This document shows, piece by piece, positions 1,278-7,015 of a DNA stretch of 64,000 nucleotides (position 1 is the first letter of the stretch; every line of letters starts with the position of its first letter). The notes below the pieces were generated by a model. It did no database searches. It had not been told where the DNA came from and was given only the letters and a program-made list of their open reading frames with translations. Origin of the DNA: Pseudomonadota bacterium (lineage in GTDB: Bacteria; Pseudomonadota; Gammaproteobacteria; Steroidobacterales; Steroidobacteraceae). The DNA lies in contig JAJYAM010000007.1 in the NCBI GenBank assembly GCA_021779535.1, forward strand, positions 1 through 64,000, written 5' to 3'. The translations under genes and the position numbers were made by a program.

Positions 1278-1376
1278 CGGCCCGCGCCCGCAGGACTCCG
1301 GCGCCCGATCAAGTACCGCTACCGCTGCTCCCTTCCGGGCCTGACGGGGTTCACGGACGATCGTCGCGAAGATGCG
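1278..1376 (-). ncRNA. ffs: Signal recognition particle 4.5S RNA (boundaries approximate)
   Basis: Reverse complement contains GTGAACCCCGTCAGGCCCGGAAGGGAGCAGCGGTAGCGG, matching the conserved SRP RNA apical core (CAGGTCCGGAAGGAAGCAGC). Confidence 0.9.
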
Positions 1377-1408
1377 AACGCGAGCCACCATGGACTCATC
1401 CCGGCGAT

Positions 1409-1500
1409 TGGCGGAGAGGGAGGGATTCGAACCCTCGAACACCTTTTGGGGTGTTACTCACTTTCCAGGCGAGCGCCTTCGACCACTCGGCCACCTCTCC
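1409..1500 (-). tRNA. tRNA-Ser(GGA), CCA encoded
   Basis: Reverse complement GGAGAGGTGGCCGAGTGGTCGAAGGCGCTCGCCTGGAAAGTGAG...GGTTCGAATCCCTCCCTCTCCGCCA; acceptor stem pairs, long variable arm, anticodon GGA. Confidence 0.95.
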
Positions 1501-1584: not shown

Positions 1585-1842
1585 TCATTTCGGGTTTTCC
1601 TTGTATTGCGGCGGTTTCTCGAGACAGGCGTCCTTGGACGCGAGCGGCGCCCCGGGCGCCGCGGGCGGAATCCGCAGCGCCTCCTTCGACTCCGGTGCCT
1701 GCATTCCCTCGGGAACCCGCAGTGGCGCGATCACCTCGGCGGTCTTGTATTCCTCGTACCCGCCGCAGTGCGGCCGCAACAGGTGGCAGCCGGACATCAA
1801 TGCGGCGACGGCCGCGATTCCCATTGCCCGAATTGGTCTCAT
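1585..1842 (-). CDS. Small outer-membrane-type lipoprotein, 85 aa, BamC N-terminal (lasso)-like
   Basis: Lipobox LMSGC; start overlaps dapA stop; segment YKTAEVIAPLRVPEGMQAP resembles the BamC N-terminal region, and the gene follows dapA as bamC does. Confidence 0.75.
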   Translation of the reverse strand: MRPIRAMGIAAVAALMSGCHLLRPHCGGYEEYKTAEVIAPLRVPEGMQAPESKEALRIPPAAPGAPLASKDACLEKPPQYKENPK

Positions 1843-2732
1843 GAATTCGATTCCTCGTTGGAGATCCCGGCGGCGCGCATCGCGCGCCGCACGGCCTCGT
1901 GGTGGCTGGCGTTCAGCTCAATCAACGGCGGCCTGATTCCGGAGCCGATCAGCCCCAGCTGCGCAACCGCCCATTTGACCGGTATCGGGCTCGACTCGAC
2001 GAACAGCGCCCGATGCAGCCCCTGCAGGGACCCGTCGATCCGCCGCGCCGCGTCGCGATCGCCCCGCATCGCCGCGGCGCACGCCTGCTGCATCCGGCGC
2101 GGCGCGACGTTCGCGGTCACCGAAATCACCCCGCGCGCACCGATTCCGATCCACTCGACCGCGCTCGCGTCGTCCCCGGACAGCACCGTGAAGCCGGGCG
2201 GACAGGCCGCGAGCAGCTCCCGCCCGCGGTCGAGCGACGGCGTCGCCTCCTTCAGCGCGACGATACGCGGATGCCCGGCGAGACGGGCGACGGTCGCCGG
2301 CAGCAGATCGACCGCGGTGCGACCCGGGACGTTGTACAGGATCACCGGGACCGCGGAAACCTCCGCCGCGGCCTGGAAATGCCGGATCATCCCCTCCTGC
2401 GGCGGCTTGTTGTAATACGGGGTCACGATCATCACGCCGTCGACCCCCGAGCGCGACAGCGCCCGCGTGCGGGCGACCGTCTCGGCGGTCGAGTTCGTCC
2501 CCGTGCCGACGATCACCGGCATCGCGCCGCGGCAGCGCGCGACGGCGCGCCGCGCCATTTCCGCGATTTCGTCGAGGGTCAGCGCCGGCGATTCGCCGGT
2601 CGTGCCCGCGACGACGATCCCGTTCGAGCCCTCGGCCCGGTGGAAATCGAGCAATCGGTCCCAAGCGGGCCAATCGAGCGATCCGTCCGCCGTCATCGGC
2701 GTCACGATCGCGACCAAACTACCGGTGAACAT
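1839..2732 (-). CDS. dapA: 4-hydroxy-tetrahydrodipicolinate synthase
   Basis: MFTGSLVAIVTPM...GTTGESPALT...VTPYYNKPPQEG..YNVPGRTAVD..KEAT. Start chosen at MFTG, internal to the listed ORF. Confidence 0.96.
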   Translation of the reverse strand: MFTGSLVAIVTPMTADGSLDWPAWDRLLDFHRAEGSNGIVVAGTTGESPALTLDEIAEMARRAVARCRGAMPVIVGTGTNSTAETVARTRALSRSGVDGVMIVTPYYNKPPQEGMIRHFQAAAEVSAVPVILYNVPGRTAVDLLPATVARLAGHPRIVALKEATPSLDRGRELLAACPPGFTVLSGDDASAVEWIGIGARGVISVTANVAPRRMQQACAAAMRGDRDAARRIDGSLQGLHRALFVESSPIPVKWAVAQLGLIGSGIRPPLIELNASHHEAVRRAMRAAGISNEESNS

Positions 2733-2866: not shown

Positions 2867-3397
2867 ATGAAACAGCACATCGTGATTTCGGCGGTCGGTC
2901 CCGACCACGTCGGTATGGTCCACGAACTGACCAAGGCGGTCGCCGACTGCGGCGGCAGCATCAGCGAGAGCCGCATGGCGTCGCTGGGCAACGAGTTCGC
3001 GATGCTGCTGCTCGTGACCGGCAACTGGCACACGCTCGCGAAGCTCGAGGGAGAGTTCAAGAAGCTCGGCGATGCGAGCGGCATCAACATCCAGATGCGC
3101 CGCACCGAAGCGCGCGCGGCGCGCAACGACCTGCTGCCCTACTCCGTCGACGTCGTCTGCCTCGATCAAACCGGGATCGTCGCCTCGATGGCGGGGTTCT
3201 TCTCCCAGCGCGGCGTCGACATCGCCGAACTGTCGACGCGGTCCTACGCGGCGGCGCATACCGGCGCACCGATGTTCTCGATCCAGATGATCGTGAACGT
3301 CCCGAGCCGGCTGCACATCGGCGTGCTGCGCGAGGAGTTCCTGGATTTTTGCGACCACCAGAACCTCGACGCGATCTTCGAGCCGGTGAAGAGCTGA
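2867..3397 (+). CDS. gcvR: Glycine cleavage system transcriptional repressor-like ACT domain protein
   Basis: MKQHIVISAVGPDHVGMVHELTKAVADCGGSISESRMASLGNEFAMLLLV; two ACT domains. Confidence 0.88.
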   Translation: MKQHIVISAVGPDHVGMVHELTKAVADCGGSISESRMASLGNEFAMLLLVTGNWHTLAKLEGEFKKLGDASGINIQMRRTEARAARNDLLPYSVDVVCLDQTGIVASMAGFFSQRGVDIAELSTRSYAAAHTGAPMFSIQMIVNVPSRLHIGVLREEFLDFCDHQNLDAIFEPVKS

Positions 3398-3401
3398 TCG
3401 G

Positions 3402-3872
3402 ATGGCGCGGGGCACACTCGAGATCGGCAGGCCGGCGCCGCCGTTCCAGCTCGCGGGCACGGCCGGCGACTGGTCGCTCACCGCGGCGCCCGGCACGCCG
3501 CGGGTGCTCTATTTCTACCCCCGCGACAACACGCCGGGCTGCACCACGGAAGGCCGGGCGTTCGCGGCCGGCCACGCGAAGTTCCGGGCGGCCGGCGCGA
3601 CGATCGTCGGCATCTCGCCGGACAGCGTCGAGTCCCACCGCAAGTTCAAGGCGAAGTTCGCCTTTCCGTTCGAGTTGCTGAGCGACCCCGATCGCCGCGT
3701 CTGCGAGCTCTACGGCGTGATCCGCGAGAAGCGCCTGTGCGGGCGCAAGTTCCTCGGCGTCGAGCGCAGCACGTTCCTGATCGATGCGCAGGGCGTGTTG
3801 CGGCAGGAGTGGCGCAAGGTCAAGGTCGACGGACACGCCGAAGCGGTGCTGGCGGCGGTGAAGGCATTGTGA
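3402..3872 (+). CDS. bcp: Thioredoxin-dependent peroxiredoxin, Bcp/PrxQ family
   Basis: LYFYPRDNTPGCTTEGRAF..GISPDSVESHRKFKAKFAFPFELLSDPD. Confidence 0.95.
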   Translation: MARGTLEIGRPAPPFQLAGTAGDWSLTAAPGTPRVLYFYPRDNTPGCTTEGRAFAAGHAKFRAAGATIVGISPDSVESHRKFKAKFAFPFELLSDPDRRVCELYGVIREKRLCGRKFLGVERSTFLIDAQGVLRQEWRKVKVDGHAEAVLAAVKAL

Positions 3873-5377: not shown

Positions 5378-7015
5378 ATGACTCAGCGCCGCCCCCGATT
5401 CGGTTCCTGGCTCGCCGGGTGCGTTGCGCTCCTGGTCGGAATGGGCGCCGGCGTCGCCTACTCGGCCGGGGCCGGGCCCGCAACGGCGACCGCGGCCAAC
5501 GACCCGACCGCGTATGCGCAGCGCCACGTCGGCACCGAGGGTGAGCTGCCCGCGCTCGGCAGCGCGGCGAACGCGGCGATCAGCCTGCAGGAAGAATACG
5601 ACGCGGGTGTGATCTTCACGCGGGAATTGCGCCAGCGCGGCGACATCCTCGAGGACCCCGAGGTCAGCGCCTACATCCAGGAGATCGGCCACGAGATCGC
5701 CAGCTACGCGCAGAACGGCCAGCGCCAGTTCTCGTACCACGTCGTCAAGGATCCGACGATCAACTCGTTCGCGATTCCGGGCGGCTTCGTGTTCATCAAC
5801 AGCGGGTTGTTCCTCGCGACCCGCAACGAGAGCGAACTCGCGGCGGTGGTCGCGCACGAAACCGCGCACGAGACCCAGCGCCACATCGCCCGCGGGATCT
5901 ACGACCAGCAGCACGCGAGCCTGATCTCGACCGCGGCGATGCTGGCCGCGGTGTTGCTCGGCGCAACGGTCGGCGGCGGTTCCCCGGACGCGATGGAGGG
6001 GGCGATCGTCGCGGGCCAGGGCGCCGCGATCCAGCACCAGATCAATTACACGCGGGCCGAGGAAGCGGAAGCCGACCGCATCGGGATCTACACGATGGCG
6101 AGCGCCGGCTTCGATCCGCTCGCGATGGCGAGCTTCTTCCAGCGGCTCGAGACGACCGAGGGCAACCCCGCGTTCGCGAGCGCCTACGGCTTCCTGATGG
6201 ATCACCCGGTCACCGCGGACCGCATCGCCGAGGCGCGCAACCGCGCGGCGCAGATCGGCCGGATCCATCACGTCGACTCGATCAGCTACGGGCTGATGCG
6301 CGAACGGCTGCGCTCCCTGGTCGGCGATCCGCAAGCCGCGATCCGCTACTACCAGGCCCTGCGCGCGAACGGCGGCGGACGCGCTCTCGACGACCGCTAC
6401 GGCCTCGCGGTCGCCTACACCTACGCGCACACCCCGGCGCCGGCGATCCCGATCCTGAAGAAACTGCTCGCCGAGAACCCCCGCGTGACGCAGCTCTACG
6501 GTGCGCTCGGCCAGGCGTACCTCGCGAACGACGAGCCGAAACGGTCGCAGGCGATTCTCGAGAAGGCGCGCGGACTGTTCCCGCACAACGTGCCGATCAC
6601 GATCCGTCTCGCGCAGACCTACATGCAGCAGGGGCAGAATGCGCGCGCGCACCACATCCTGCTGGACCTGTTCAACGTCGTCGATCCGACGCCCGAGCAG
6701 ACCCGCCTGATCGCGCGGGCCGCGCACGCGGCGGGCGACCTCGCCGACTCGTACTATTACATGTCCGAGTTCTATATCATGAACGGCGAACTCGAGCGCT
6801 CGTCCGGCCAATTGAGGCTCGCGCTCGCGCAGCCGAAACTGAATCCGGTCCAGCGCGCCCGCTTCAGCGCCCGCCTCGCCCAGGTGCGCGCCGCACTCGA
6901 CGAGATGAAGAAGCAGAACCGGGGGCGCTCGCGGCACGATCACTCCGGAGGCGGCTCCGGGGACGGCGGCTCCGGTGGTGGCGGCGGTGACGGCGACGGT
7001 GACGGCGGACACTGA
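5378..7015 (+). CDS. M48 family metalloprotease with TPR repeats, BepA-like
   Basis: HETAH zinc motif (VVAHETAHETQRH), signal-like N-terminus, TPR-like C-terminal half, Gly/Asp-rich tail. Confidence 0.88.
   Translation: MTQRRPRFGSWLAGCVALLVGMGAGVAYSAGAGPATATAANDPTAYAQRHVGTEGELPALGSAANAAISLQEEYDAGVIFTRELRQRGDILEDPEVSAYIQEIGHEIASYAQNGQRQFSYHVVKDPTINSFAIPGGFVFINSGLFLATRNESELAAVVAHETAHETQRHIARGIYDQQHASLISTAAMLAAVLLGATVGGGSPDAMEGAIVAGQGAAIQHQINYTRAEEAEADRIGIYTMASAGFDPLAMASFFQRLETTEGNPAFASAYGFLMDHPVTADRIAEARNRAAQIGRIHHVDSISYGLMRERLRSLVGDPQAAIRYYQALRANGGGRALDDRYGLAVAYTYAHTPAPAIPILKKLLAENPRVTQLYGALGQAYLANDEPKRSQAILEKARGLFPHNVPITIRLAQTYMQQGQNARAHHILLDLFNVVDPTPEQTRLIARAAHAAGDLADSYYYMSEFYIMNGELERSSGQLRLALAQPKLNPVQRARFSARLAQVRAALDEMKKQNRGRSRHDHSGGGSGDGGSGGGGGDGDGDGGH

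Follow-up and report, generated by a model that had tools for sequence, protein, structure and literature searches.

The bamC position of a Steroidobacteraceae genome (assembly GCA_021779535.1) is occupied by an 85-residue lipoprotein whose N-terminal segment, as judged by profile comparison, shares ancestry with the lasso through which BamC binds BamD, and which lacks both globular domains of that protein. Its gene lies at positions 1,585 to 1,842 on the minus strand of the 64,000-nucleotide stretch of DNA that was analysed, hereafter the window. We consider it very likely that this gene is a lasso-only bamC orthologue, from which both helix-grip domains have been lost while the membrane anchor and the lasso have been kept, and that its product would work as the BamC lasso does. 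The E. coli lasso winds around BamD, and it is chiefly through this lasso that BamC touches the complex; its helix-grip domains, for their part, are mobile, and deleting BamC has only a slight effect on phenotype (PMC13067283, PMC5056442).

Sequence comparisons confirm that the 85-residue open reading frame is a real gene under constraint, conserved after dapA across the order. Against three relatives at 79-91% identity, the dN/dS ratios (NG86) are about 0.31, 0.21 and 0.30 (0.054/0.174, 0.120/0.572 and 0.129/0.432), and third codon positions hold most of the differences in the two more distant of the three. The frame and its lipobox are exactly as the first-pass annotation had described them. 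The signal peptide ends in the lipobox LMSGC (1,786-1,842, minus strand), whose lipidated Cys19 (codon 1,786-1,788) is invariant in 28 relatives, and the start of the gene overlaps the stop of dapA in an ATGA at 1,839-1,842 (minus strand). This gap of -4 is shared by nearly all members of the genus, and we infer from the ATGA that dapA and the lipoprotein gene are translationally coupled. The mature part comprises 67 residues including the lipid-bearing cysteine, and about 17% of them are proline. Searches of NCBIfam and of PDB sequences with the 85-residue protein returned no match.

The surroundings of the gene reproduce those of bamC in E. coli K-12, where bamC and dapA are divergent from gcvR and bcp. 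In the window, dapA (1,839-2,732, minus strand; Pfam DHDPS, 287.9 bits) is followed directly by the short lipoprotein gene, which fills the bamC slot as the first-pass annotation had proposed, and is flanked by the divergent gcvR (2,867-3,397, plus strand; Pfam ACT_6) and bcp peroxiredoxin (3,402-3,872, plus strand; Pfam AhpC-TSA). A bepA gene, also found in the E. coli neighbourhood, was identified from its translation at 5,378-7,015. On the other side, an SRP RNA (1,282-1,380, minus strand; RF00169, 69.3 bits) and a tRNA-Ser(GGA) (1,409-1,500, minus strand) lie between dnaX, recognised from its translation, and the lipoprotein gene.

The homology to BamC is carried by a lasso core at residues 27-62, GGYEEYKTAEVIAPLRVPEGMQAPESKEALRIPPAA (1,657-1,764, minus strand). 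With the single sequence, the match to Pfam PF06804 is weak (14.2 bits, E 0.022, profile positions 1-31 against residues 31-61). Roughly 35 of the 60 genomes of the order show this partial match at the corresponding gene, almost always from profile position 1 to about 32, and so do 20 of the 28 members of our alignment. Mature sequences, from which the signal peptides had been removed to exclude them as the cause, were compared with full-length BamC by hhalign, which gave a probability of 96.2, an E-value of 2.6e-9 and a score of 48 across 36 aligned columns; none of 100 column shuffles scored above 11.2. The likeness to the BamC N-terminal lasso, which the first-pass annotation had noted and for which it had proposed such a profile-profile search, is strongly borne out by this result together with the PF06804 match. 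In the cases compared, moreover, the profile of the short forms (A1) matches the N-terminus of the very open reading frame that PF06804 covers lengthwise in other orders (for example at G113:C50, G324:C25, G327:C380, G148:C43, G184:C4 and G214:C61). By Pfam's own criteria the window protein is not a BamC, since its score of 14.2 lies below the gathering score of 25 bits, which is passed in none of the 60 genomes, and the globular domains are absent. What it has of a BamC is the lipobox with its lipidated cysteine (LMSGC, Cys19), the N-terminal lasso sequence recovered by hhalign, and the genomic slot directly downstream of dapA and beside gcvR-bcp.

The absence of the two helix-grip domains, also claimed at first sight, holds for the whole genome. 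The protein itself ends at residue 85, and a model of both domains (A2), built from 22 full-length BamCs, finds no match at E 0.1 in 60 genomes, namely the window's own, which is 99% complete, and the 59 relatives searched alongside. The same model scores 271-427 bits on held-out two-domain BamCs (among loci L090-L114). A full-length BamC elsewhere in the genome, which was looked for because it would speak against a reduced form, was not found either, and nor was a separate helix-grip domain. The window's genome does encode BamD (233 bits), BamE (95 bits) and BamB (402 bits), with the BamD gene located outside the window, at G000:C74:9863-10585.

The lasso-only form is found throughout the order and recurs elsewhere in the class, a spread on which the first-pass annotation was silent. 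The short lipoprotein is matched at E < 2e-4 in 44 of the 59 relatives searched, nearly always immediately after dapA; the exceptions seen are L028, L035 and L048, for which dapA was not found within the stretch fetched. One of these, L028 (G039:C137:6514-6747), is a lasso-type lipoprotein in a genome whose other match lies on contig C18, and it may be either a second copy or contamination. Across the class, which the distribution of BamC indicates to be Gammaproteobacteria, the short-form profile matches 162 of 274 genomes, with short forms recurring in other lineages as well. Of the 28 matches in 200 genomes drawn from across the phylum, 27 belong to the same class, and the sole match outside it contains an internal stop.

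The first-pass annotation had regarded the lasso-like segment as the only conserved part of the protein, which did not hold up. The 28-sequence alignment contains six invariant columns, Cys19, Cys26, Pro44, Pro59, Cys73 and Pro78, so that invariant residues also lie outside the core: Cys26 (1,765-1,767, minus strand) just upstream of it, and Cys73 and Pro78 in a distal CLxxPPxY motif downstream, which reads CLEKPPQY in the window (Cys73-Tyr80, 1,603-1,626, minus strand; Cys73 codon 1,624-1,626). In short forms free of these cysteines, a distal motif can be aligned with that of enterobacterial BamC (VDL.PP opposite ALDIRPP), and in the window CLEKPPQY is spaced almost equally from the core. Its apparent counterpart in E. 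coli is ALDIRPPA, where the lasso has its distal end. This motif alignment and spacing suggest that the whole mature peptide is probably lasso, which would make it roughly as long as the ordered E. coli lasso (residues 32-85; PMC5056442).

The pairing of Cys26 and Cys73, likewise absent from the first-pass annotation, extends across the short forms. A script count gives 54 short forms with both cysteines, none with the first only, seven with the second only and 20 with neither; in five of the seven, judged by eye, the second cysteine appears to have been mis-assigned as the lipid one. The co-occurrence has a Fisher p of 2e-13, calculated on related sequences that are not independent, and none of 47 full-length BamCs carries either cysteine. 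On the RpoB tree the cysteine-bearing short forms need two changes, and one genome that lacks both cysteines (G206, locus L119) sits within the cysteine-bearing lineage. The pair thus arose essentially once, and its many occurrences are not independent. We also searched the BamD proteins of the relatives, leaving out the L174 row, which had been read in a wrong frame, for a matching conserved extra cysteine and found none, which makes an internal disulfide more likely. The likeliest reading of these patterns is probably an intramolecular Cys26-Cys73 disulfide that brackets the lasso core.

Two other explanations of the short protein bear on the lasso itself. One is a chance or compositional resemblance to the lasso in a small proline-rich lipoprotein of other origin, for which the high proline content of the mature part and the weakness of the lone Pfam match could be cited. 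We find this scarcely credible, and as far as our tools reach it is refuted by the column-shuffled controls (11 against 48), the shared operon slot, the reciprocal profile matches on BamC and the near absence of matches outside the class. The other is that the lasso sequence has been kept for a different partner, or that the CLxxPPxY end recruits one to the BAM complex, so that binding BamD would not be the main job of the protein. Apart from the core prolines, no part is indeed more invariant than the distal motif and the cysteines, and in related families the lasso is joined to Cds6_C/NTF2-like domains or an outer-membrane barrel. However, what aligns with BamC is the core, the very part known to contact BamD, and the alignment of cysteine-free short forms to enterobacterial BamC through the distal PP motif suggests that the distal end is probably lasso too. 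We give this explanation a slim chance, and prefer the reading of a BamC lasso that serves BamD.

Among the loci of the class we distinguish four architectures, with two helix-grip domains, with one, with none, and with the lasso joined to an unrelated domain. The one-domain form, in which the lasso is followed only by the second helix-grip domain, is an intermediate architecture seen in L079, L200, L208 and L217 and more weakly in others. In L075 and L204 (G071 and G223), a lineage that is sister to one of the one-domain forms on the RpoB tree, the lasso is followed by a domain of about 90 residues that Pfam does not recognise (L075 was scanned). In a further group (L035, L036, L042, L043 and L045; G025, G043, G059, G046 and G053), the lasso and its cysteines precede an NTF2-like domain; Pfam Cds6_C matches L035, L036, L042 and L045, above the cut-off in L036 and L042, and L043 looks alike. 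Right after dapA in another genome (G029:C16; L030/L054), a lasso lipoprotein runs into an OMP_b-brl barrel (E 5.8e-15, 312 residues), which is possibly a lasso-barrel fusion or else an artefact of assembly or frame.

The first-pass annotation had offered two origins for the short protein, reduction of a longer BamC or an ancestral short state, and it is the first of these that the RpoB phylogeny favours. The tree comprises 53 genomes and rests on one gene and a simple model, with some forks open. The counts of changes and the AU test come from a second RpoB tree, from which the outgroup and all rows that were unclassified, incomplete or on long branches had been omitted. Full-length and other states are separated by at least eight changes on the RpoB tree, and a single clade of full-length BamCs is rejected (AU p = 1e-4, lnL difference 211). 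The cysteine-bearing short forms group together with modest support, nested among full-length lineages. Since the full-length proteins do not form one clade, and all two-domain proteins are homologous, the tree speaks for domains lost repeatedly rather than for an ancestral short state. The opposite course, from an original lasso lipoprotein to which some lineages later added the helix-grip domains, would accord with the occurrence of short forms in many lineages of the class, and a common ancestor 'X' of BamC and alphaproteobacterial BamF with a shared N-terminal motif was considered by Anwari 2012 (PMC3359395). Nevertheless, one gain without loss predicts the single full-length clade that the AU test rejects, as do the many changes, and the clade of the window lies among full-length lineages, so that we regard an ancestral short form as rather unlikely and repeated reduction as the better account.

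If the protein is a reduced BamC, the 66 residues that remain after the lipid anchor most likely lie along BamD as the E. coli lasso does, and such a strap would stabilise BamD in a BAM complex having BamB, BamD and BamE. The predicted Cys26-Cys73 disulfide would probably close the strap into a loop, and this closed loop may replace the restraint that was lost with the globular domains. Both the binding to BamD and the stabilising role are predictions from homology to the E. coli lasso.

Among known systems, the closest counterpart is BamC itself (NlpB/DapX, PF06804) of E. coli and of beta- and gammaproteobacteria, which is likewise a lipoprotein encoded downstream of dapA and divergent from gcvR-bcp. 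The lasso core of the window protein aligns with it in register (P..GM..P.......IP), whereas the window protein has no helix-grip domains, carries two extra cysteines and scores below the Pfam cut-off. The one-domain BamC forms share the same lasso and have lost the globular part in part, with the second helix-grip piece kept. BamF, reported as the counterpart of BamC in alphaproteobacteria, is a lipoprotein whose short N-terminal, membrane-proximal motif is related to BamC, and it is reported to elute with BamD; its restriction to alphaproteobacteria and the unlikeness of its remainder to BamC (PMC3359395) set it apart by description from the window protein. Our search of the literature, confined to open-access papers, retrieved no account of a BamC that is lasso-only or closed by a disulfide. 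To the idea of the first-pass annotation, which proved right, the analysis adds how widely the short form occurs, in which direction it probably evolved, the two paired cysteines and the fusions in which the lasso is used again.

A survey in 2012 described BamC in all beta- and gammaproteobacteria, with the helix-grip motifs conserved throughout (PMC3359395), and the present order with lasso-only forms, together with the other lineages, qualifies that universal picture. BamC has been called the most mysterious BAM lipoprotein: E. coli is little affected by its deletion, and structures seldom resolve its globular domains (PMC13067283). Several lineages have lost the rest of BamC and kept the strap, which suggests that what counts is probably the strap; this would be natural evidence that the lasso is the part of BamC under selection, and the short forms offer natural minimal versions for testing the role of BamC. 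More tentatively, and with somewhat more doubt than confidence, we speculate that BamC does its work through the conserved lasso, a general BamD-docking strap from which the globular domains were repeatedly lost, which was locked by a disulfide in one large lineage, and which was reused elsewhere for NTF2-like domains and a barrel. If this is true, the fused domains, NTF2-like or outer-membrane barrel, would be brought to the BAM complex by the lasso strap.
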